The notes under the pieces: model-generated | Databases searched by the model: none | Told to the model about the DNA's origin: nothing | Seen by the model: the letters and a program-made list of their open reading frames with translations, nothing else | Origin: Salegentibacter salarius | GTDB taxonomy: Bacteria; Bacteroidota; Bacteroidia; Flavobacteriales; Flavobacteriaceae | Length of the DNA: 64,000 nt | Assembly (NCBI RefSeq): GCF_900168265.1 | Contig: NZ_FVZF01000004.1 | Coordinates: 1 to 64,000, forward strand | Direction of reading: 5' to 3' | Shown: positions 39,415 through 56,560 of the stretch, piece by piece | Position numbering within the stretch: position 1 is the first letter of the stretch | Layout of the letters: every line of letters starts with the position of its first letter | Program-made: the position numbers and the translations under genes

Positions 39415-39468
39415 ATAATTCTATCTAAAATCACTATCAAAAAAAGAAGCGGGAAAGTATTCTTTCTT

Positions 39469-39575
39469 GTTATCTATCTGCGCCAAAGAAGCGAAGTAGA
39501 ATGTAGCACCTTCTCCCATTACAGGAGGGTTGCCAAGGCGTCAACGGGTCTATTCCCTCAACCTTTCTTGATAAC
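39469..39575 (-). promoter_or_regulatory. SAM-I (S-box) riboswitch of the metH-metF operon
   Basis: On the minus strand P1 is GTTATC (39570-39575) with GATAAC (39469-39474). Inside are the conserved S-box pieces in order: AAGAAAGG, TTGAGGGAATAGACCC, GTTGACGCC, TTGGCAACC, a CTCC/GGAG hairpin and AGGTGCTACATTC. Downstream, GAAAG-AATA-CTTTC followed by T7 after a short gap could be part of a termination platform. SAM binding would shut off metH and metF. Confidence 0.92.
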
Positions 39576-39604
39576 GATGTTGTAAAACAATGAACTTGAA
39601 CTAG

Positions 39605-45051: not shown

Positions 45052-45816
45052 TATAATTACTGATTCTTCAATTGCGTTCTGCATTACCGACTTTAATTTC
45101 CCGCTTTCTCTTACCACTTCGCCAATAACAATAATCGCCGGGGCGGTTAATTGCTTTTCAGCAACAACTTTTTCTATACTTTTAATAGTTCCGAAACCTG
45201 ATTTTTCATTAGTGGTAGTTCCATTTTGAATAATCCCAACCGGAGTATTTTGTTTGCCGTAGTAACTAAAAATATCCACGATTTCAGGAAGTTTTGCCAT
45301 TCCCATTAAAATCACCACCGTCGCGGTAGATTGTGCTGCCAGGCGAACATCTTCTGAAAGTTTCTTTTGTGTGGTGGTTCCTGTAATTACCCAAAAACTC
45401 TCAGAAGTTCCTCGTTGCGTAAGCGGAATTCCAACATTTGCAGGAACTGCTATTGAAGACGTAATCCCGGAAACAACTGCAGTTTCCAAACCTTTACTTT
45501 TGGCATAATTAATTTCTTCAGAACCTCTTCCGAAGATAAATGGATCTCCTCCTTTTAAACGAACCACGTGCCCTCTTTCCAAAGCATATTTTACAATAAG
45601 CTCGTTGATCTCATCCTGAGAATACCTATGCTTATCTTTTCGTTTTCCAACAAAAATATGCTCGGCTTGCGGTGCATATTCTAGCAATTCGCGGTTGATA
45701 AGCGCATCAAAAAGCACCACTTTGGCATCTTTTAAAGTATTTAGCGCTTTAATTGTGATCAATTCCGGGTCTCCGGGACCAGCGCCTACCACGCTTAGTT
45801 TTGGTGTATTATACAT
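45031..45816 (-). CDS. cobA: Uroporphyrinogen-III C-methyltransferase
   Basis: This SUMT of about 261 residues methylates uroporphyrinogen III twice to precorrin-2. It has SVVGAGPGDPELITIKALNTLKDA, VFVGKRKDKHRYSQDEINELI-type features (IFVGKRKDKHRYSQ), RLKGGDPFIFGRGSEE and VVSGITSSIAVPANVGIPLTQRG, the classical signatures. The start at MYNTPKL (45816) is preferred; the longer reading adds nine residues inside sulfite reductase. It overlaps sulfite reductase by eight bases. The C-terminal residues come from the repeat at 45024-45051. Confidence 0.94.
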   Translation of the reverse strand: MYNTPKLSVVGAGPGDPELITIKALNTLKDAKVVLFDALINRELLEYAPQAEHIFVGKRKDKHRYSQDEINELIVKYALERGHVVRLKGGDPFIFGRGSEEINYAKSKGLETAVVSGITSSIAVPANVGIPLTQRGTSESFWVITGTTTQKKLSEDVRLAAQSTATVVILMGMAKLPEIVDIFSYYGKQNTPVGIIQNGTTTNEKSGFGTIKSIEKVVAEKQLTAPAIIVIGEVVRESGKLKSVMQNAIEESVIINSPIGG

Positions 45817-47902
45817 TTTGTACCTCCTTTGTTCTAAATGCATCTACCCTTTTTAGGAATAGTTGCGCGTCTTCTAAATATTTATTGGCCAAAGCTTCGG
45901 TTGGCTCGTGCTCGTTCATTTGATAAGCAAATTCTTTGAAGGAAGTCGATAATTCAATTTTACCGGTGTCTACAAACAATTCGTCAAACTGTGCAATTAT
46001 TCCCGCCTGGGTATTGGTTTTTACATCTTCCGCAAGTAATAAAGCCTTGGCAGAATTTACGATTGAAGTATAGGAATGATAAATACTATCTGCCCAGGCT
46101 TTTCTTTCCTGTGCACTTTTGGCATTATCGATCTTCTCCTCGCTTTCAAATAATAAAGTAGCGATAAGATCTATTACCACGCCGGCACACTCGCCCACTC
46201 CCACTGCTTTTATATAAGGTTTTTCGTGACCCCAATCCACAAATTCATTTTCTGTTAGATTTGAGGTATCGGCCAAATCTTTTAGCAAATCGTAGAAATA
46301 AGTTTTTCCCTGCCGGTCATAATATTCTGCGAATTTTTCTTCGGAATTTGCTTTCGCTTCAAAATCATTGAGTAACAATCTTAAAGCTTGCGGCCCGCGT
46401 TTACTGGGTACTTTTATTACTTTATCGGCAAATCTACCTTTTCCATCTCCCAGCGTTCCGCCGCCAAGCAAAACCTGAAGTGCCGGCGCCACGGTTTTGC
46501 CAACTTTAACCGACATTCCCTGGAAGCCAATCTCAGCCATATTATGCTGCCCACAGGCATTCATACAACCGCTTATTTTTATGGTAATATCTTTCCCATT
46601 TATAAATTGCGGGTATTCTTCTTTTAAAACATCTTCCAGCACGTCGGCAATTCCGGTACTGCTGGCAATTCCAAGATTACAGGTATCTGTTCCGGGGCAG
46701 GCGGTAATATCTACGGTTTTATTATAACCGGTTTCGGCATAACCCAGTTTTTTTAATTCTGAATAGAAAAATGCTAAAAACTCTTCCCGAACGTGACGAA
46801 TTAAGATATCCTGTCTTAAACTCAGTCTTATTTCATTTCCTGCATATTTCTTTACCAAATCGGCAAGTTTCCTCGCACCGCCGGTATAAAAATCGCCTAG
46901 CGGAACACGAATTCCAACCGCAAATAAACCTTCCTGTTTATGCGGAAGCACATTGGTACTTTTCCAGGTTTCAAAATCTTTCTGATCTTCAATTGTTACT
47001 GCAGGAACCTCAACCTCCTGAAGTGACGGTGCAGTTTCAAATTTTTCAACTTCAAATTTCGGATGGTTTTTAGAGAGTGCCGTATTTTGTTCGGAAACTA
47101 ATTCCATAAAGGCATCCTTACCAATGTCTTTTATAAGGAATTTCATCCTGGCTTTTAAGCGTTTTGCACGTTCCCCGTGTCGATCAAAAACTCTTAGAAC
47201 ACCTTCTATCAGCGGTAGCAATTCTTCGGCAGGAAGAAAATCATAAAGTTCATCGGCGTGTCTTGGCTGAGAACCGAGTCCGCCGCCTAGCATCACTTTG
47301 AAGCCGCGTTTTCCGTCTTTCAATTTTGCGATAAAACCAAGATCGTGAATGTAACTCAGCGCAGTATCTTCATCTGAAGAGGAGAACGAAATTTTGAATT
47401 TCCTTCCCATTTCCTGGCAAATCGGGTTCCGAAGGAAAAACTGAAATGTTCCGTGCGCATAGGGCGAAACATCAAAAGGTTCGTTTACATCAATTCCCGC
47501 AGTTGGCGAAGCGGTTACGTTTCTTACCGTGTTTCCGCAGGCTTCACGCAAAGTAATATCATCTTTTTCCAGCTGCGTCCAAAGTTCCGGGGTTCTGTCT
47601 AAACTCACGTGGTGAATCTGGATATCCTGGCGCGTAGTGATATGCAAACGCCCTTTAGAATATTCATCTGAAACATCAGCAATTCTATGCAGTTGTTCTG
47701 ATGTCACTTTTCCAAATGGCAGTTTTATTCGAACCATTTGTACCCCGGCCTGCCTTTGGCCGTAAACCCCACGTGCTAAACGCAGACTTCGGAATTTTTC
47801 TTCATCGGCTTTTCCCTCTCGAAACAACCTGATTTTCTTTTCCAGATCCAGGATGTCTTTCTCTACAACGGGGTTTTCAATTTCGGTTCTAAAACTTTGC
47901 AT
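45809..47902 (-). CDS. Siroheme sulfite/nitrite reductase with C-terminal HEPN-like domain
   Basis: This 697-residue protein reduces sulfite to sulfide with siroheme and a 4Fe-4S cluster. The duplicated ferredoxin-like fold is visible (RQAGVQMVRIKLPFGKVTSEQLHRIAD and a second copy GIRVPLGDFYTGGARKLADL). The cluster ligands are in TACPGTDTCNLG (CX5C) and SGCMNACGQHN (CX3C). The last ~140 residues (VGVGECAGVVIDLIATLLFESEEKIDNAKSAQERKAW...) form a helical HEPN-like domain absent from ordinary reductases. It is preceded by a Met/Cys leader peptide and terminator, placed between it and cysH. Confidence 0.9.
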   Translation of the reverse strand: MQSFRTEIENPVVEKDILDLEKKIRLFREGKADEEKFRSLRLARGVYGQRQAGVQMVRIKLPFGKVTSEQLHRIADVSDEYSKGRLHITTRQDIQIHHVSLDRTPELWTQLEKDDITLREACGNTVRNVTASPTAGIDVNEPFDVSPYAHGTFQFFLRNPICQEMGRKFKISFSSSDEDTALSYIHDLGFIAKLKDGKRGFKVMLGGGLGSQPRHADELYDFLPAEELLPLIEGVLRVFDRHGERAKRLKARMKFLIKDIGKDAFMELVSEQNTALSKNHPKFEVEKFETAPSLQEVEVPAVTIEDQKDFETWKSTNVLPHKQEGLFAVGIRVPLGDFYTGGARKLADLVKKYAGNEIRLSLRQDILIRHVREEFLAFFYSELKKLGYAETGYNKTVDITACPGTDTCNLGIASSTGIADVLEDVLKEEYPQFINGKDITIKISGCMNACGQHNMAEIGFQGMSVKVGKTVAPALQVLLGGGTLGDGKGRFADKVIKVPSKRGPQALRLLLNDFEAKANSEEKFAEYYDRQGKTYFYDLLKDLADTSNLTENEFVDWGHEKPYIKAVGVGECAGVVIDLIATLLFESEEKIDNAKSAQERKAWADSIYHSYTSIVNSAKALLLAEDVKTNTQAGIIAQFDELFVDTGKIELSTSFKEFAYQMNEHEPTEALANKYLEDAQLFLKRVDAFRTKEVQNV

Positions 47903-48075: not shown

Positions 48076-48705
48076 TTAAGCGTGGAGGCCACATTCGCGG
48101 TTTTCCAAAACCTTGGTAGGATCAAAATATTTAAACTCATTTGGCAGGGCATTTTCCTCTAAATACGCATCCAGTTTTTCATCACTCCAATGGTAAAAAG
48201 GACTCACTTTTAATATTCCGTCTTTACTATAGCTTAAAATATCTATGCTATTTCTAAAACTGGTTTGGCCCTTTCTAAGATTTGTAAACCAAACATCAGG
48301 GTTTTGCTGCTCCATAGCTCGCAGGAAAGGTTCCAGTTTTACCTGCCGGGTGAACTCTTCGTGCTGCGGATTATTGATATCGGGAATTCCTCCAAAAAGC
48401 GCATCACGATAAGCCGCCGTTTCCTTTGGCGTGTATAGCTTTACATTCAGTTTTAATTGATCAATTACCTGCTTTGCGTGCCTGTAAGTTTGTGGCGTAT
48501 TATAACCGGTATCACACCAAATTACTTTCATTACCGGGTCTATATCTGAAACTGCGTGCAGAATTGCAGCCTCATAAGGTCTAAAATTGGTAGTAACCAC
48601 CGGTCTTGCCGCATTGGAAACTACCCATTGCACGATCTCAGCCGGGGTTATTCCCTTAAACTGCTGGTTGAGGATCTTTAATTCTTTTTCGCTGTACCGT
48701 TTCAT
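48076..48705 (-). CDS. cysH: Phosphoadenylyl-sulfate reductase
   Basis: CysH reduces PAPS (or APS) to sulfite with thioredoxin. The 209-residue protein has VVTTNFRPYEAAILHAVSDIDPVMKVIWCDTGYNTPQTYRHA, the PP-loop-type nucleotide part, WFTNLRKGQTSFRNSID and the C-terminal catalytic RECGLHA. The extra CC...CxxC cluster ligands of APS reductases are absent, so a PAPS-type enzyme is likely. The cysD/cysN genes are not in the window. It lies downstream of the DUF2061 gene and upstream of the sulfite reductase attenuator. Confidence 0.93.
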   Translation of the reverse strand: MKRYSEKELKILNQQFKGITPAEIVQWVVSNAARPVVTTNFRPYEAAILHAVSDIDPVMKVIWCDTGYNTPQTYRHAKQVIDQLKLNVKLYTPKETAAYRDALFGGIPDINNPQHEEFTRQVKLEPFLRAMEQQNPDVWFTNLRKGQTSFRNSIDILSYSKDGILKVSPFYHWSDEKLDAYLEENALPNEFKYFDPTKVLENRECGLHA

Positions 48706-49151: not shown

Positions 49152-49568
49152 TTATTTTTTAGCAGAAATATCGGCTAAGGTATTATCGCCCAGAACTTTT
49201 AAGGTGCTATCCCTTACCTGGATCATTAAACTATGAACCGAACAGGTTTCCTCGCTGGGACAATCATCACACTTTTCGTAATAATTAAGGCTCACGCAAG
49301 GCACCATAGCGATGGGACCTTCCAGTACCCGAATTACCGCCGTCATTTGAATCGCTTCCGGTTCTTTGATCAGATAATAGCCGCCGCCTTTTCCTTTTTT
49401 AGATCCTAAAAATCCCGATTTTCGTAATTCCAGAAGAATGCTTTCAAGGAATTTTTGCGAGATATTTTCACTTTTTGAGATCTCTGAAGTTTGCACGGGT
49501 TTTCTATCTTCCCTTTTTGCTATGAACGCGAGGGCTTTAATTCCGTATTTAGTCTTTTTTGAAAGCAT
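49152..49568 (-). CDS. Rrf2-family transcriptional regulator (CymR/IscR-like)
   Basis: This 138-residue winged-helix regulator starts MLSKKTKYGIKALAFIAKR, with the HTH TSEISKSENISQKFLESILLELRKSGFLGSKKGKGGGYYLI typical of Rrf2. It has a cysteine cluster CVSLNYYEKCDDCPSEETC (four Cys), like IscR or NsrR, which could hold an iron-sulfur cluster. The ATG at 49568 is used; the longer reading to 49661 adds 31 unrelated residues. Its place between metZ and the sulfate assimilation operon suggests it regulates sulfur genes. Confidence 0.9.
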   Translation of the reverse strand: MLSKKTKYGIKALAFIAKREDRKPVQTSEISKSENISQKFLESILLELRKSGFLGSKKGKGGGYYLIKEPEAIQMTAVIRVLEGPIAMVPCVSLNYYEKCDDCPSEETCSVHSLMIQVRDSTLKVLGDNTLADISAKK

Positions 49569-49663
49569 ATGGCGAATATACTTAAATATTGACTTTTTCG
49601 CATTTATTATTGATTTCTCTACTGAAAGATCAAAAAGCCCTATTCCTGCTGAAATTACCATAA

Positions 49664-50827
49664 CTAAATTGAATTTAAAGCTTGTTTTAAATCATCTATA
49701 ACATCATCTACATGTTCCAAACCTACTGAAACTCTTATCAAACCGGGTTTTATTCCAACCTCCAGCCTATTTTCCTCGCTTAATTTACTGTGCGTTGTAG
49801 AAGCAGGATGTGTTACAATACTTCTTGTGTCTCCCAGGTTTGCAGATCTTGAACAAAGCTTGATCGCGTCTATAAATTTTCTTCCCGCTTCGATTCCTCC
49901 TTTAATCTCAAAGGCAACGATATTTCCGCCTTTTTTCATCTGCTTTTTCGCAATTTCGTATTGAGGATGCGATTTGAGAAAAGGGTATTTTACATTTTCA
50001 GCATTGACTTCGGTTTCTAAAAATTCGGCTACTTTTTCGGCATTTTCGCAATGCTTGTCCAGCCTTACCGAAAGTGTCTCCAAACTTTTAGAAAGCACCC
50101 AGGCATTAAACGGGGACAAAGCCGGTCCCGTATTCCTTGAGAACAGGTAGATTTCCCGAATTAAATCGGCATTCCCAACTGTCACACCGCCCAGAACACG
50201 GCCCTGCCCGTCTATTAATTTTGTAGCCGAATGTATTACCAAATGCGCGCCGAATTTTATAGGGTTTTGCAGCCAGGGCGTGGCAAAACAATTATCAATT
50301 ATTAAAATAAGATTATGCTTTTTCGCAATTTCCCCCAGCAATTCTAAATCCAGAACATCTACACCGGGATTTGTAGGTGTTTCGGCGAAAATAATTTTTG
50401 TTTCCGGCTTTATTAAACTTTCAATTTTATCAACTTCGTCCACATTAAAATAGGAATGAGAAATATTCCATTTGGGGAAAAATTTGGTAAACAAACTATG
50501 CGTAGAACCAAAAACCGATCTTGCCGAAATAATATGATCTCCACTATTAAGCAACGCAGCAAGGCTGGAAAACACGGCACTCATTCCCGTTGCAAAAGAA
50601 AACCCGGCCTCTGCCCCTTCCATTTTTGCGATTTTCTCGGTAAATTCTGAAGTATTAGGATTAGTAAATCTGCTATAAATATTACGTTCTTTTTCTTCAG
50701 AAAATGAAGCTCGCATATCTTCGGCATCATCAAAAACATAACTGGACGTTAAGTACAGTGGCGTGGAATGCTCCTGGTATTGCGTGCGCTCGTTTTGCGT
50801 TCTTATGGCTTCGGTTTCGAAATGCAT
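49664..50827 (-). CDS. metZ: O-succinylhomoserine sulfhydrylase / cystathionine gamma-synthase-like
   Basis: This 387-residue trans-sulfuration PLP enzyme has YSRFTNPNTSEFTEKIAKMEGAE, FATGMSAVFSSLAALL, ETPTNPG, and the Schiff-base lysine in VIHSATKLIDGQGRVLGGVTVG. It ends with THSKLSEENRLEVGIKPGLIRVSVGLEHVDDVIDDL. The reading from MHFETEAI (50827) is used. Family membership (MetZ versus MetB) cannot be settled by sequence alone; because the operon has MetX and MetY for O-acetylhomoserine, a second sulfhydrylase or gamma-synthase is plausible. It begins 19 bases after hom. Confidence 0.85.
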   Translation of the reverse strand: MHFETEAIRTQNERTQYQEHSTPLYLTSSYVFDDAEDMRASFSEEKERNIYSRFTNPNTSEFTEKIAKMEGAEAGFSFATGMSAVFSSLAALLNSGDHIISARSVFGSTHSLFTKFFPKWNISHSYFNVDEVDKIESLIKPETKIIFAETPTNPGVDVLDLELLGEIAKKHNLILIIDNCFATPWLQNPIKFGAHLVIHSATKLIDGQGRVLGGVTVGNADLIREIYLFSRNTGPALSPFNAWVLSKSLETLSVRLDKHCENAEKVAEFLETEVNAENVKYPFLKSHPQYEIAKKQMKKGGNIVAFEIKGGIEAGRKFIDAIKLCSRSANLGDTRSIVTHPASTTHSKLSEENRLEVGIKPGLIRVSVGLEHVDDVIDDLKQALNSI

Positions 50828-50846
50828 AATTATTGGGTTTAATTTT

Positions 50847-51920
50847 TTAATTAAGTCTTTGTGATAATTTGAGCACATCGCTTGCCACGCCACGGGCGGT
50901 TACTGCGGCTCCTGCGCCGGCTCCCTGGATCACCAGCGGTTGGTCTCCGTAAGATTCGGTATAAATTTCAAAAATGTTATCGGCGCCTTTAATTTGGCCC
51001 AAGGCGGTATTTTTAGGTTCAGAAATGAGTTTTGCCTCCAGGGTGGCTTTTTCTACCTCAATTTCTCCAATATATCTTAATACGTGACCCTGATCTTGTT
51101 GTTTTTTATGCTGATTAAAAATCTCATCCAGTTCACTAATCCTATTCTGAAATTCTTCTGCGGAAGTCTCCCCGTTTAATTTTTCCGGAATTAAAGATTG
51201 AATTTTCACCTCCTGAAATTCTTTATCCAACTGAAGCTCCCGTGCCAGGATCAATAATTTTCTACCCACATCGTTTCCCGAAAGGTCTTCACGAGCATCG
51301 GGCTCGGTATAACCCAGGTTTCCGGCTTTCTTTAAAACATCAGAAAACTTCTCTTTATTTTCAGAAAAAGTATTGAAAATAAAACTCAATGAACCGGAGA
51401 AGACTCCACGAATTTTAGTGACTTTCTCTCCCGCCTGGTGCAAGCCCTTTACGGTTTGCACAATTGGTAAACCGGCGCCTACATTGGTTTCGTAGAAAAA
51501 ATGCTTCCCGTGATAATCCAATTCTTTTCGTAATTTTTTATAAAAATCGGCAGAAAGTGTGTTGGCTACTTTATTGGCCGCTACCAGGTTAAAGCCGTTT
51601 TGGATTAAGCGAATATAAATCTCTACAAATTCCTTACTCGCCGTAGCATCTATTGCAATAAGATGTTCCAGATCGTGCTCTTTAGTAAAATCGAGAATGT
51701 CTTCCAGTTTATATTCTTTAGCCGATCTTTTAAAATCCTTTTCCCAGTTTTCAGTAATTCCTTCGGCTATAAGCAGTGCTTTAGTTGAATTGGCGATTAC
51801 CGGAATATTGACCGAAACTCCCGAATTCTCTTCCCATTGCTTTTTTGCGCTAAGTAGTTGCTCGATTAAGGTCTTGCCAACGTTCCCTATTCCAAATAAA
51901 ATGATGTTTACTTTTTTCAT
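50847..51920 (-). CDS. hom: Homoserine dehydrogenase
   Basis: Hom reduces aspartate semialdehyde to homoserine. The 357-residue protein has the nucleotide motif LFGIGNVGKTLIEQL, LVAANKVANTLSADFYKKL, FYETNVGAGLPIVQTVKGL, FSGSLSFIFNTF, GYTEPDAREDLSGNDVGRKLLILARE, all landmarks, and a C-terminal ending IQGAGAGAAVTARGVASDVLKL. It lacks an aspartokinase domain. It sits 10 bases downstream of metX. Confidence 0.94.
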   Translation of the reverse strand: MKKVNIILFGIGNVGKTLIEQLLSAKKQWEENSGVSVNIPVIANSTKALLIAEGITENWEKDFKRSAKEYKLEDILDFTKEHDLEHLIAIDATASKEFVEIYIRLIQNGFNLVAANKVANTLSADFYKKLRKELDYHGKHFFYETNVGAGLPIVQTVKGLHQAGEKVTKIRGVFSGSLSFIFNTFSENKEKFSDVLKKAGNLGYTEPDAREDLSGNDVGRKLLILARELQLDKEFQEVKIQSLIPEKLNGETSAEEFQNRISELDEIFNQHKKQQDQGHVLRYIGEIEVEKATLEAKLISEPKNTALGQIKGADNIFEIYTESYGDQPLVIQGAGAGAAVTARGVASDVLKLSQRLN

Positions 51921-51930
51921 TTAATTAATT

Positions 51931-52995
51931 CTAGATCCCAACCTGGGAATTTGAAACAGACCAATTTTCATTAGCCTGAGTATTAAAAATTTTAGTTTCC
52001 AGTTTCGTTCTGGTTTCAGCTTCTTTATTAATGCTACCAAATACTGGTTTTAAAAACCTGGCCAGTTGCGAAGCTTCGATTAAAAAAGCATCGTGCCCGT
52101 GAATTGATCTTATTTCGTGAATACTCACATTATTTTTTACCAGCGAAAGGTTTACATAAGTATCCCAATTCTCATCGGCCAGGAAAAACCAATCGGAATT
52201 CACCGTAACAATATGGATGTTCCCCTCTATTTTTTTTGCCTCTTCCAGGTAGTTTTCGCTGCCTTTGCTAATATCTATAGTGGTTAGCAAATGATTCATC
52301 AACTTATAAGAAGCGAGCTGAAAACGCTCTTCCAGTTTATCTCCGTGATATTGCAACCAACCTTCTACTTTATAACAAGGCTTCACTTCTTCTTTTGTAC
52401 GATTAAATTTTTTACTTAAAGATTGTGGGGTGCGATAGAAAGTCATCGCGTGCATTCTCGCATCTTTTACCGGTGAGTTAGAATTATTCAGGATTTGTTC
52501 CTGCACTTTACAATTTGCCAAAACCCAATCGGTCGCTTTATAATCTGTGGCGATGGGAATAATATTTTCGGCTAAATCTGGTTTAAGAGCCGCGAGTTCC
52601 CAGGCTAAAGCGCCACCTATGGAACCTCCAATTATTGCAAAAAGCTTTTCAATCTTTAATTGCTGAAGCGCCAGTGCCTGAATTTTAGCTATATCTGCAA
52701 GCGTAAATTCTTTATAATTGTCAATTAAATGTTCCTTTTTTCCGTTGAAACCATTACCCGGAATATTAAAAGCCAGGATGCTGAATTTTTCGGTATCTAT
52801 AGATTTTTCGGGGCCTACAATATTAGTCCACCAGCCTAATTTTCCTGTAATTTGGGAATTCCCGGTAAGCGCGTGATTTATTAAAACCACCGGTGCAGTT
52901 TTGGAATCCTGACCAAATTGCTGAAAACTCAAATAGATATCCTGAACCGTTCCCGCGGAATTTTCAAAATCTTTTAAACAGAGTTCCTGTAGCAT
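51931..52995 (-). CDS. metX: Homoserine O-acetyltransferase
   Basis: MetX activates homoserine with acetyl-CoA. The 354-residue alpha/beta hydrolase has INHALTGNSQITGKLGWW, FNIPGNGFNGKK, the nucleophile elbow GGSIGGALAWELA and the catalytic His in HGHDAFLIEASQL near the C-terminus. It lies between metY (84 bases upstream) and hom, which supports an acetyl route to methionine. Confidence 0.9.
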   Translation of the reverse strand: MLQELCLKDFENSAGTVQDIYLSFQQFGQDSKTAPVVLINHALTGNSQITGKLGWWTNIVGPEKSIDTEKFSILAFNIPGNGFNGKKEHLIDNYKEFTLADIAKIQALALQQLKIEKLFAIIGGSIGGALAWELAALKPDLAENIIPIATDYKATDWVLANCKVQEQILNNSNSPVKDARMHAMTFYRTPQSLSKKFNRTKEEVKPCYKVEGWLQYHGDKLEERFQLASYKLMNHLLTTIDISKGSENYLEEAKKIEGNIHIVTVNSDWFFLADENWDTYVNLSLVKNNVSIHEIRSIHGHDAFLIEASQLARFLKPVFGSINKEAETRTKLETKIFNTQANENWSVSNSQVGI

Positions 52996-53079: not shown

Positions 53080-54372
53080 TTATACCAATGCTTTTTTCTG
53101 AATTTTGGCAAAAGCCTCTTTTAGATCTGTTTTTAGATCTTCCACATCTTCCAGGCCTACCGAAAGGCGAATAAGATCTTGTGTAACTCCGGTAGTAGCT
53201 TGTTGCTTTTCGTCCAGCTGCTGATGCGTAGTGCTCGCAGGATGAATAATCAGGGATTTAGTATCACCAATATTGGCAACGAGCGAGAAAAGTTTTGTTT
53301 CATCGGCAACAACTTTAGCCGATTCAAAGCCTCCTTCAACTCCAAAAGTTACTACGCCACTTTGGCCTTTTGGGAGATATTCTTTGGCAAGTTTATTATA
53401 CTTACTGCTTTCTAAGCCGGGATAATTCACCCATTTTACTTCTTCCTGCTGCTCTAGCCACTTAGCAAGATTTAAGGCATTTTCGCTATGCTGCTTTATT
53501 CTAATTTCAAGAGTTTCTAAACCTTGTAAGATCTGAAACGCGTTATAAGGACTTAGAGCCGCACCGTGATCACGAAGCCCTTCAATTCTAACTTTAGCAA
53601 TAAATGCTGCTTCTTTTAAAGCTTCGTGGTAAACAAGTCCGTGGTAGCCCGGTGAAGGTTCTGTGAATTCCGGGAACTTTCCATTGGCCCAATTAAAATT
53701 CCCGGCATCTATAATGGCACCACCAAGCGAAGTTCCATTTCCGCTTATATATTTAGTAAGGGATTCAATAACAATATCGGCGCCGTGCTCTATAGGTTTT
53801 AGTAAGGAAGGTGTAGCAACTGTATTATCCACTATAAAAGGGACTTTAAGTGCATTAGCCTCAGCAGAAATTGCTTTTAGATCTAAGACATCCAGCTTTG
53901 GATTTCCAAGCGATTCTACAAAAACAGCCCGTGTATTTTCCTTAGCAGCCTTTTTAAAATTCTCTGGATATTCGGGGTCTACAAAAGTGGTTGTGATTCC
54001 AAATCTAGGTAGCGTTACACTTAGCAAATTGTAAGTTCCGCCGTATAAACTACTGGAAGCAACAATATGGTCCCCGGCTTTTAATAGCGTTAGCAGCGTA
54101 GTATTAATGGCCGCAGTTCCTGATGCGGTTACTACCGCAGCAATTCCCCCTTCCAGCGAAGCAAGGCGTTGTTCCAAAATATCGTTGGTAGGATTATTTA
54201 AGCGGGTGTAGATGTAACCCGGTTCTGCAAGTGAGAAAAGATTGGCAGCGTGATCTGAATTATTAAAAACATAAGAAGTTGTTTGGTAAATAGGCACCGC
54301 TCTTGTTCCTCCGTTAGCTTTAGTATCGTGACCGGCGTGTAATGCGTTTGTTGAAAATTTTTGAGTACTCAT
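53080..54372 (-). CDS. metY: O-acetylhomoserine sulfhydrylase
   Basis: MetY joins O-acetylhomoserine and sulfide to homocysteine. The 430-residue PLP enzyme has FSTNALHAGHDTKANGGTRAVPIYQTTSY, TRLNNPTNDILEQRLASLEGG, VTASGTAAINTTLLTLLKAGDHIVASSSLYGGT, the lysine in ESLTKYISGNGTSLGG and THQQLDEKQQATTGVTQDLIRLSVGLE. The start MSTQKF (54372) is certain; a 51-residue upstream extension is only a translated REP-like repeat. Two leader peptides with terminators precede it. Confidence 0.95.
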   Translation of the reverse strand: MSTQKFSTNALHAGHDTKANGGTRAVPIYQTTSYVFNNSDHAANLFSLAEPGYIYTRLNNPTNDILEQRLASLEGGIAAVVTASGTAAINTTLLTLLKAGDHIVASSSLYGGTYNLLSVTLPRFGITTTFVDPEYPENFKKAAKENTRAVFVESLGNPKLDVLDLKAISAEANALKVPFIVDNTVATPSLLKPIEHGADIVIESLTKYISGNGTSLGGAIIDAGNFNWANGKFPEFTEPSPGYHGLVYHEALKEAAFIAKVRIEGLRDHGAALSPYNAFQILQGLETLEIRIKQHSENALNLAKWLEQQEEVKWVNYPGLESSKYNKLAKEYLPKGQSGVVTFGVEGGFESAKVVADETKLFSLVANIGDTKSLIIHPASTTHQQLDEKQQATTGVTQDLIRLSVGLEDVEDLKTDLKEAFAKIQKKALV

Positions 54373-54429
54373 AATTTCTAGTTTTTTAAAGTTGCTTCTA
54401 ATTTTTGAAGCTTGATTTTGTTTTTTGAT

Positions 54430-54454
54430 AGATTCCCACCTTCGTGGGAATGAC
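54430..54454. repeat. REP-like palindrome between metY and its second attenuator
   Basis: AGATTCCCACC-TTC-GTGGGAATGAC: TTCCCAC/GTGGGAA stem. Same family as 12794-12818. Confidence 0.7.
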
Positions 54455-54463
54455 GATTTAGTT

Positions 54464-54503
54464 AATAAAAAAAGTCCCCTTAAGTAGCTATTACCAAGGG
54501 GAC
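54464..54503 (-). terminator. Second Met attenuator terminator
   Basis: GTCCCCTT (54496-54503) pairs with AAGGGGAC (54474-54481) on the minus strand, with a 14-base loop, then T7. TTGGTAATAGC (54487-54497), covering the top of the first arm and loop, can pair over 11 bases with GCTATTGCCAA (54544-54554) in the leader ORF. Confidence 0.9.
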
Positions 54504-54531
54504 CTTTTAATTGAACTCTAAACAAACTAAG

Positions 54532-54627
54532 TTACATTCGGTTTTGGCAATAGCGTTTCATGTGTCGCATAGACATACACATCATCATAGTGCGCATCAT
54601 CATGTTATTTATTGCCTTTATCATCAT
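54532..54627 (-). CDS. Met-rich leader peptide 2, upstream of metY
   Basis: This 31-codon ORF has ATG at 54627 and TAA at 54532. Twelve residues are Met: positions 1, 2, 9-11 (MMM), 14-16 (MMM), 18, 20, 23 and 31. Codons 25-28 contain GCTATTGCCAA, an 11-base complement (one G-U) of TTGGTAATAGC in the downstream terminator. Stalling on the Met runs would leave it free to form the antiterminator; translation to the stop would cover it. The ORF is flanked by REP-like repeats and lies downstream of an equivalent unit. Confidence 0.85.
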   Translation of the reverse strand: MMIKAINNMMMRTMMMCMSMRHMKRYCQNRM

Positions 54628-54637
54628 ATTGATTTTT

Positions 54638-54662
54638 GTCATTCCCACGCAGGTGGGAATCT
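54638..54662. repeat. REP-like palindrome in the metY leader
   Basis: GTCATTCCCAC-GCAG-GTGGGAATCT, inverse in orientation to the copy at 54704-54728; together they form a BIME-like pair inside the leader transcript. Confidence 0.7.
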
Positions 54663-54703
54663 AATTTTAATTTATTCTTTCAAATTCAAATTTATTCTTC
54701 TTT

Positions 54704-54728
54704 GGATTTCCGCCTTCGCGGAAATGAC
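54704..54728. repeat. REP-like palindrome in the metY leader
   Basis: GGATTTCCGCC-TTC-GCGGAAATGAC. The TTTCCGC/GCGGAAA stem matches the copy at 12794-12818, and the overall format matches 54638-54662. Confidence 0.7.
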
Positions 54729-54738
54729 TTAATTGCAT

Positions 54739-54772
54739 AAAAAAAGCCGCTGCGGTTGGCAGCGGCTTTTTG
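54739..54772 (-). terminator. First Met attenuator terminator
   Basis: On the minus strand AAAAGCCGCTGC and GCAGCGGCTTTT form a 12-pair stem around CAACC, followed by T7. The segment CCGCAGCG (54808-54815) in the leader ORF copies the second arm, so CGCTGC can pair with GCAGCG instead, giving an antiterminator. Confidence 0.9.
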
Positions 54773-54792
54773 CAATTTATATCTTTTCAGAA

Positions 54793-54864
54793 TTAAGCAA
54801 TTGAGCGCGCTGCGGAAGTTCTCCACATCATCATACGCATCATATTGCAAATTATCTGGTACAT
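54793..54864 (-). CDS. Met-rich leader peptide 1, upstream of metY
   Basis: This 23-codon ORF has ATG at 54864 and TAA at 54793. Residues 8-13 read MMRMMM. It begins about 20 bases after a perfect promoter and precedes the first terminator by about 20 bases. Codons 16-19 contain CCGCAGCG, a mimic of the terminator's second arm. It forms, with leader peptide 2, a tandem attenuator for metY-metX-hom-metZ. Confidence 0.85.
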   Translation of the reverse strand: MYQIICNMMRMMMWRTSAARSIA

Positions 54865-54883
54865 TTCGTTGTTTTGTTGGTTA

Positions 54884-54916
54884 CAAAGATAAGGGCAGAA
54901 ATTTTTAATATCCAAA
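54884..54916 (-). promoter_or_regulatory. Promoter of the metY operon
   Basis: On the minus strand TTTG (54913-54916), 21 bases and TATCTTTG (54884-54891) match the consensus exactly. It is divergent from the metK promoter. Confidence 0.75.
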
Positions 54917-55158: not shown

Positions 55159-55169
55159 TAACCGAATTA

Positions 55170-55242
55170 TTTAAAGGGAAGGATTTGACTGATTGCAACC
55201 CTTTTATACTTTTAAAGTGTAAGAAAAATGCTAAAGCAGTAT
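55170..55242 (+). promoter_or_regulatory. SAM-II/SAM-V-like riboswitch of metK
   Basis: P1 AAAGGG (55173-55178) pairs with CCCTTT (55199-55204). The loop contains GATTTGACTGATTGCAA, whose ACTG (55188-55191) can pair with CAGT (55237-55240), forming an H-type pseudoknot. AATGCTAAAGC before that is the conserved SAM-II core. The expression platform is not obvious; control of translation is possible, 60 bases before the start codon. Confidence 0.75.
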
Positions 55243-55303
55243 CACTACTTCCTTAGCTCCCCGTCAAATTCAACCCGTATTTTTTAAAAACTAATTTAAA
55301 AAT

Positions 55304-56560
55304 ATGGCTTATTTATTTACTTCAGAGAGTGTATCTGAAGGACACCCAGATAAAATCGCAGATCAGATTAGCGATACTTTACTTGATAATTTCCTTGCTT
55401 TCGATGAAAATTCTAAAGTTGCCTGTGAGACATTAGTAACTACAGGCCAGGTGGTACTTGCCGGTGAAGTTAGAAGCGACACTTATCTAGATGTGCAAAA
55501 CATTGCCCGCGAAGTAATAAACGAGATTGGTTATACCAAAGGAGCTTATAAATTTAGTGGGGATTCTTGTGGCGTGATCTCTCTAATTCACGAACAATCC
55601 CAGGAAATTTACCAGGGTGTAGATCGTGAAAATAAAGAAGAACAGGGCGCCGGAGACCAAGGAATGATGTTTGGTTATGCCACCAACGAGACCGAAAATT
55701 ATATGCCCCTGGCCTTAGATATTTCTCACAAAATCCTCATCGAATTGGCGAAATTAAGGCGTGAAGGCAAAGATATCCCCTATTTACGTCCCGATTCTAA
55801 AAGCCAGGTTACCATAGAGTATAGTGATGATAATGTTCCGCAGAAAATTGTGGCCATTGTGGTTTCTACCCAGCATGATGAGTTTGATGAGGATGATGAT
55901 GAAATGCTGAAAAAGATCAAGAAAGATATTCTTGAAATTCTTATTCCACGAGTAAAGGAACAATTACCTGAATACGTTCAGAAACTATTTAATGATGATA
56001 TTACTTATCATATAAACCCAACCGGGAAGTTTGTTATTGGTGGGCCTCATGGCGATGCCGGACTTACCGGAAGAAAAATTATCGTAGATACCTACGGCGG
56101 AAAAGGCGCTCACGGTGGTGGTGCTTTTTCCGGGAAAGATCCTAGTAAAGTTGATCGCTCGGCAGCCTACGCATCACGTCACGTTGCCAAAAACCTGGTT
56201 GCTGCAGGCCTTGCAGATGAAGTTTTAGTGCAGGTTTCTTATGCCATTGGCGTGGTAGAACCTACTTCTATTTCAGTAGAAACTTATGGCACCGCAAAGG
56301 TAGATATGAAGGATGGGGAAATTGCGAAAAAAGTAGCGCAAATATTTGATATGCGCCCCTGGGCCATTGAAGATAGGTTAAAACTCAGAAATCCTATTTA
56401 TAGAGAAACCGCCGCCTACGGCCATATGGGAAAAGAACCAAGAACCGTGACTAAAATCTTTAAAAGTCCGTATTCCGGGGAGGTAAAAAAAGAAGTGGAA
56501 TTGTTTACCTGGGAAAAACTGGATTATGTAGATAAAGTGAAGGAAGCTTTTAAGCTTTAA
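55304..56560 (+). CDS. metK: S-adenosylmethionine synthetase
   Basis: MetK makes SAM from methionine and ATP. The 418-residue protein has [50 protein letters not shown] and [19 protein letters not shown], all the family motifs, within the usual length (slightly long). It stands alone, with an upstream SAM aptamer and a downstream terminator. Confidence 0.97.

Follow-up and report, generated by a model that had tools for sequence, protein, structure and literature searches.

Two methionine-rich leader-peptide attenuators predicted in series upstream of metY in Salegentibacter salarius, and their exchange with SAM riboswitches among relatives

Classical leader-peptide attenuators are those of the trp, his, thr and leu operons of Proteobacteria, and the control of methionine genes in bacteria is known mostly in the form of repressors and SAM riboswitches. 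Vitreschak et al. reportedly predicted in 2004 that the Pasteurellales thrA attenuator responds to methionine as well; that leader contains Met codons as the metY leaders described here do, but it is a mixed leader in a single unit and belongs to another phylum. The Salmonella mgtCBR leader holds two short ORFs with tandem attenuators, whose signals are ATP and proline and act additively (PMC3641672). Short ORFs with runs of Cys codons stand before sulfur genes in Actinobacteria (PMC1262725). A Xanthomonas SAM-I riboswitch is reported to respond to uncharged initiator tRNA, mainly at translation (PMC7270179). Naville and Gautheret 2010 give cases in which the sensor at one gene switches between T-box and leader peptide, for example at hisS (PMC2965389).

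We describe here the leader of the presumed metY-metX-hom operon of Salegentibacter salarius, in a stretch of 64 kb (the window; contig NZ_FVZF01000004.1, positions 1 to 64,000). From sequence alone, in the absence of any transcript, termination, translation or expression data, we propose with a probability of about 0.88 that two serial ribosome-mediated transcription attenuators control this operon. Like the classical attenuators, they combine a run of codons for the product with an antiterminator segment that mimics, and overlaps in its pairing, part of an intrinsic terminator, and the spacing in unit 1 is compatible with stalling; unlike them, they are coded by Met and Cys, occur in Bacteroidota, stand two in series for one operon and occupy the site that a SAM riboswitch holds in other relatives. 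Ribosome-mediated attenuation as such is known; these four traits are what is new. The mgtCBR leader is alike in having a pair of short ORFs, each with an attenuator, although both metY units carry Met/Cys runs, and the metY units differ from the Mycobacterium Cys-leader regions, in which no conserved hairpin capable of termination was seen (PMC1262725). Control of a met operon tied to the charging of initiator tRNA would be shared with Xanthomonas, although the element there is a riboswitch, and the use of different attenuation sensors at one gene in different lineages, here a SAM riboswitch or a Met leader, resembles the cases of Naville and Gautheret. SAM-I and SAM-II (RF00162, RF01726) occupy the same site before metY in 23 relatives that lack the units, and both occur elsewhere in the window; they sense SAM and need no leader ORF, whereas the metY units would sense charged tRNA. 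Among the matches listed in the open PMC literature (subscription papers not covered), none describes Met leader attenuators in Flavobacteriaceae.

Architecture of the metY leader

The gene metY, encoding O-acetylhomoserine sulfhydrylase (53080..54372, minus strand; TIGR01326, 636.7 bits against a cut-off of 495.1), is the first gene of the presumed operon; among named genomes, Salegentibacter holothuriorum has the nearest metY, at 98% identity. It is followed on the minus strand by a metX-like gene (51931-52995), a homoserine dehydrogenase-like gene (50847-51920) and a metB/sulfhydrylase-like gene (49664-50830), each named after its best NCBIfam match, which falls below the equivalog cut-off. 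Beyond these lie a gene for an Rrf2-family regulator (49152-49661) and a cysH-like gene (48076-48705). Divergent from metY is metK (55304-56560, plus strand), with a SAM-II riboswitch ahead of it and facing it (55169-55244, plus strand; Rfam), and a SAM-I riboswitch (39467-39577, minus strand; Rfam) precedes metH, which is split in two ORFs. SAM-I, SAM-II and Met leaders are therefore all present for one pathway in one genome.

The first-pass annotation had read two leader ORFs upstream of metY, one containing MMRMMM and one with 12 Met among 31 codons, each followed by an intrinsic terminator and each holding a segment complementary to that terminator. All of these parts are found in the sequence, on the minus strand, although termination itself is predicted. 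The leader ORF of unit 1 (U1), MYQIICNMMRMMMWRTSAARSIA, spans 54864-54793, and its mimic GCAGCG (54813-54808) pairs 6/6 with CGCTGC in the 5' arm of the hairpin AAAGCCGCTGC-CAACC-GCAGCGGCTTT (54769-54743), next to which a T run follows. The leader ORF of unit 2 (U2) runs from the ATG at 54627 to 54532, with an in-frame alternative ATG at 54642; its antiterminator segment GCTATTGCCAA (54554-54544) forms 11/11 pairs with TTGGTAATAGC, including a single G-U, and its terminator hairpin (54507-54470) is followed by a T run to about 54464. Between the U1 terminator and the U2 start lie 28 to 224 nt in the 43 loci that have both units close to metY. Palindromic repeats occur between and after the two units (54431-54454, 54638-54661 and 54707-54724), including within the spacer of the window, and one of them supplies the alternative ATG of unit 2.

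Upstream of unit 1 stand TTTGG (54916-54912) and the TAnnTTTG box TATCTTTG (54891-54884), both on the minus strand, a pair that is promoter-like by the Bacteroidota consensus and is taken as the candidate promoter of the tandem leader. A TAnnTTTG box is found within 70 nt upstream of the ATG in 29 of 45 U1 units, in 26 of these at 26-30 nt, and in just 1 of 56 U2 units (longer starts were used for L015 and L019; elsewhere both starts were shifted to the inner Met). We therefore infer, without transcript data, that a single transcript probably spans both units.

In the mechanism that we infer, a ribosome would translate the short Met-rich (and Cys-rich) leader of each unit. When Met-tRNA, and probably Cys-tRNA too, is scarce, it would stall at the Met run and leave free the segment just ahead; transcription would then continue, because this segment would pair with the upstream portion of the terminator; when amino acids are plentiful, it would reach the stop codon and cover the segment, the terminator would form and transcription would stop. 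RNA polymerase would have to get through both units. The attenuators would sense charged tRNA-Met, by inference, and probably tRNA-Cys too. Any benefit of the serial layout is likewise inferred: double sensing might sharpen the response, as first proposed, but two sensors with different tuning might equally well act as an AND gate, an arrangement hinted at by two relatives that combine a SAM-I riboswitch with a later Cys-run frame (see below). Met starvation should deplete initiator tRNA too, which gives a Met-reading leader a built-in problem, and how it works would be informative because starvation hits initiation as well. The locus also offers, for one operon, a clean natural swap between a metabolite (SAM) sensor and an apparent charged-tRNA sensor and, with two serial sensors for one pathway, a direct test of why attenuators are doubled.

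Conservation at metY loci and exchange with SAM riboswitches

A Met-rich ORF, defined as one with at least four Met in addition to its start codon, arose in two of 1000 dinucleotide shuffles of 54373-54900, and in none did it come with a terminator, and the scan of both strands of the 64 kb for an ORF with terminator returns units 1 and 2 only. At the loci of 80 relatives, 87 Met-rich leaders with terminators were matched in 117 kb upstream of metY, whereas the remaining 1.30 Mb, scanned on both strands, gave 3. These three are a U1 that precedes a TonB receptor gene (L083), a unit before a sulfite reductase (L019) and a Met/Cys leader with terminator 2805 nt downstream of the metY start (L082). 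The small ORF next to the last of these resembles by eye the C-terminal end, or a remnant, of metY. Another Met/Cys leader with a terminator was noticed on the minus strand of L221, at 8132.

We compared 81 metY loci, comprising the window and the best 80 from named genomes, as the first-pass annotation had suggested for a check. Within 1500 nt of metY both units are present in 43 loci, U1 only in 2, U2 only in 13 and neither in 23, which places U1 in 45 and U2 in 56 of the 81. The two U1-only loci (L053 and L085) are both from Flavobacterium. Two of the U2-only loci (L023 and L080) are truncated contigs, and in the other 11 (L050, L056, L057, L061, L067, L069, L075, L078, L079, L083 and L087) U1 sits 3.6-3.8 kb upstream of metY, ahead of a 948-aa ORF that splits it from U2. 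Both units, close or separated, are hence found upstream of metY in 54 of 56 untruncated leader-bearing loci. In L050, the one locus tested, Pfam identifies the 948-aa ORF as a TonB-dependent receptor, which may have a sulfur compound as its substrate. One metY in the set (L041), from a record titled Bifidobacterium breve MAG, clusters with Flavobacterium, has both units and is probably mislabelled.

All 23 loci without the units have a SAM riboswitch directly upstream of metY (Rfam; 22 SAM-I, 1 SAM-II). No SAM riboswitch was found on the metY strand upstream of metY in the 18 of 58 leader loci that were scanned (window included), and many of those scanned have SAM-II on the opposite strand or SAM-I further down. 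In the window, the only Rfam matches at gathering threshold are SAM, SAM-II and tRNA; the metY leader itself matches no Rfam family at that threshold, neither a SAM riboswitch (RF00162, RF01726) nor a T-box. On a quickly built metY tree with 82 rows, a single change accounts for the leader and SAM states, although the branch concerned has low support (61) and the direction of the change is unsettled.

Outside Flavobacteriaceae, among 30 genomes of the family to which G633 belongs, three have a close metY (51-66% identity): G633 itself carries tandem Met/Cys leaders before metY, and G698 and G688 carry a SAM-I riboswitch followed by a frame that ends, by eye, in six Cys codons, at which the scan found no terminator unit. 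The two frames of this kind behind a SAM-I riboswitch upstream of metY, at L243 and L244, end by eye in MNCCCCCCMC and ..FSCCCCCCW.

Pairing, spacing and the signal sensed

The mimic and arm hexamers of U1 read GCAGCG/CGCTGC in 23 loci, GCAGAG/CTCTGC in 17 and variants in 5, four of which pair 6/6 and one 5/6. In the MAFFT alignment, 94.4% of U1 cells pair, versus 32.6-50.2% when slid, a one-base shift in the alignment making five rows fail three of the pairs. The 22 cells with double changes all fall at one pair, and shuffles matched the number of double-changed pairs in 500 of 500 cases and the pair types in 493 of 500. For U2 (54 of 56 sequences, two identical ones dropped), 91.1% of cells pair, versus 12.3-57.3% when slid, with double changes at four pairs; here the double-changed pairs were reached by 9 of 500 shuffles and the pair types by 83 of 500. 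These counts rest on related sequences and not on independent events. As judged from the alignments, mimic and terminator arm vary together, in U1 chiefly at one pair and in U2 more weakly.

The U1 mimic is read in frame 0 in 37 leaders (SAA/SAE) and in frame 2 in 8 (PQR), and it is therefore the RNA that is conserved, not the peptide. Counted from the first base of the nearest in-frame Met codon upstream of it, the mimic begins at 15 nt in 36 leaders, at 14 nt in 8 and at 9 nt in 1; its start lies 18 nt ahead of the stop codon in 32 of 45. At 14-15 nt, it would begin about where a ribosome holding that Met codon in its A site has its leading edge. The codons past the Met run of U1 can pair with the mimic too (consensus fold; 24 to 45 of 45 rows per pair), which would complete the four segments of a classical attenuator in unit 1. 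A candidate helix extending the U1 antiterminator, paired in 27-34 of 45 rows per pair, is not claimed. In U2 the distances from Met codon to mimic are variable, and a ribosome stalled on the final Met codon of the window's unit 2 would partly overlie the mimic.

To model the stall, we placed a ribosome on the last Met codon lying 24 nt or more ahead of the stop and folded the transcript as far as the terminator's 5' arm and loop. At least five pairs then form between the arm/loop part and upstream RNA in 45 of 45 U1 and 52 of 56 U2 units, although the partner need not be the mimic. In unit 2 of the window, where the stall so placed lies over the mimic, 8 pairs are found and not the 11-bp helix; antitermination in this unit would need a stall further back than the modelled position. 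When the full-length RNA is folded at equilibrium with the stalled ribosome, the antiterminator is kept in only 3 of 45 U1 and 1 of 56 U2 units, the terminator being the more stable, and the switch would therefore have to be kinetic. With the ribosome at the stop codon, the terminator forms in 45 of 45 and 56 of 56, a result almost built in, as nearly all upstream RNA is masked. The duplex energies are only partly supportive of attenuation. Shuffled leaders pair as well as the real ones in 1024 of 9000 cases for U1 and 1598 of 11200 for U2. When duplexes are swapped, U1 leaders prefer the targets of their own clade over those of the other main clade (-14.6 vs -8.3; -12.8 vs -10.1), whereas the U2 leaders of Flavobacterium pair better with Salegentibacter/Christiangramia targets (-14.7) than with their own (-12.7).

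The signal is inferred from leader composition. Met and Cys account for 20% and 8% of residues in the 45 U1 leaders and 24% and 15% in the 56 U2 leaders, versus 1.5% and 0.6% in 11 window proteins. On this composition, methionine is the main candidate for the signal at metY, with cysteine as a likely second input. Sensing of cysteine, or joint sensing of the two sulfur amino acids, in place of methionine alone is nevertheless a possibility that we cannot discount, if not the one we favour: besides the Cys share of the metY leaders, the leaders of a third unit described below (n=10) hold 14% each of Met and Cys, the second of two leaders before cysH in G334 is Cys-rich, and Cys-run frames follow the SAM-I riboswitch before metY in G698 and G688. 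Against it, Met is dominant at metY, most strongly in the U2 of Salegentibacter (31% Met, 9% Cys), and the last Met codon of U1 keeps a nearly fixed distance from the mimic. The initial proposal that methionine is sensed thus holds in that Met is enriched in the leaders, and is amended in that Cys is enriched too and sulfur amino acids generally may be sensed.

Other explanations dispense with one or both attenuators. Only one unit might be active, with the other a relic or a guard against read-through, as the two Flavobacterium loci with U1 alone within 1500 nt of metY could suggest; this seems improbable to us, as leader, mimic and terminator of both units are kept in 43 of 81 loci and in 11 more where they are separated, and a Met/Cys leader tandem precedes metY in another family (G633). 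The conserved hairpins of the leader might instead belong to an undescribed riboswitch or T-box-like RNA in which the Met runs are incidental, but we give this very little credence, since no Rfam family is matched there at gathering threshold and the Met and Cys runs persist while adjacent codons change. It is hardly conceivable that the ORFs encode small metal-binding peptides followed by ordinary intergenic terminators. The peptides are indeed rich in Met, Cys and His, yet the mimic is kept at the RNA level whichever of two frames it is read in, and for that reason we set this reading aside; in addition, the mimic and terminator co-vary, and a SAM riboswitch takes the place of the units in all 23 loci that lack them. 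Tandem Met leader-peptide attenuators, as the first-pass annotation had them, remain the best supported reading, by conservation, covariation, the spacing in unit 1, the promoter-like box ahead of unit 1 alone and the exchange with SAM riboswitches.

A third unit and related units elsewhere

When the scan of the window was run at Met+Cys of at least five, one extra match appeared, so that the original pair of units is present at metY but is not the full complement of the window. This unit 3 lies between the cysH-like gene and a sulfite reductase-like gene (45809-47902, minus strand; PF01077 and PF03460) and has a leader ORF with both Met and Cys, MKKQNSNIMMCRCMCDSLT (48065-48006, minus strand). 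Its terminator, AAAGGTCCTTTT..AAAAGGACCTTT (47982-47947, minus strand), has a 5' arm that pairs 6/6 with TAAAAG at the leader stop codon. With the threshold lowered, 9 of 15 stretches taken from relatives have a similar unit ahead of sulfite reductase; two look decayed and four have none, one of the four (G010) having no sulfite reductase gene there. Other genera yielded no leader before sulfite reductase: of the 30 loci scanned (Met+Cys of at least five), the remaining 29 were all negative.

A model of U1 was searched against 299 genomes of the family, window included. At E<=1e-5 it matches 26 places, of which 23 lie before metY, 2 before metX and 1 at a contig end. At E<=0.01 it matches in 140 of the 299 genomes, a tally that we regard as mostly chance; there is no leader at L143-L146 (E 1.8e-5 to 5.8e-5), which are among the best 30 places, nor at two weaker places in the same genome as the window (C9 and C5). 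The U2 model at E<=1e-4 matches in 20 of 299 genomes, with no leader in at least two cases (L165 and L166). At the level of the order, the U1 and U2 models match at 1e-4 in 12 and 8 of 148 genomes; outside the family, G312 has a Met-containing leader before metX, and G334 has a Met/Cys leader and then the Cys-rich leader upstream of cysH. At the level of the class (U2 model not included), 10 of 247 genomes match, five of them outside the family, of which only G633 has leaders. The matches L237, L240 and L241 have no leader and are treated as chance, as is L238, which passed the Met/Cys scan but looks like the GAT-rich end of a gene read out of frame, with a best pairing of 4 nt. In G371, a U1 unit stands ahead of cysE- and cysK-like genes.

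Whether these occurrences form one system is, in our estimate, an even bet. We postulate a modular sulfur-amino-acid attenuation regulon of Bacteroidota, in which interchangeable Met/Cys-codon units, single or in series as a ribosome-read two-step AND gate, would, depending on the member, precede metY, metX, cysE-cysK, cysH, sulfite reductase and a TonB receptor, be swapped with SAM riboswitches at metY within Flavobacteriaceae and be combinable with SAM-I in series.

Some further matches stand apart from these. A Cys-rich ORF of 29 codons, MNGASCEQNMECEKNMNCSKDKPACCDKQ, followed by a terminator-like hairpin, lies on the minus strand of L261 at 979-1069, a scan match of unknown meaning. In Flavobacterium-type genomes (L179, L182 and L184) the U1 model matches units whose leaders are poor in Met, for example MKFNICNMFKVAQDNS, a point against the proposed mechanism; in L179 and L184 another leader and then a small ORF come after this U1-like unit.
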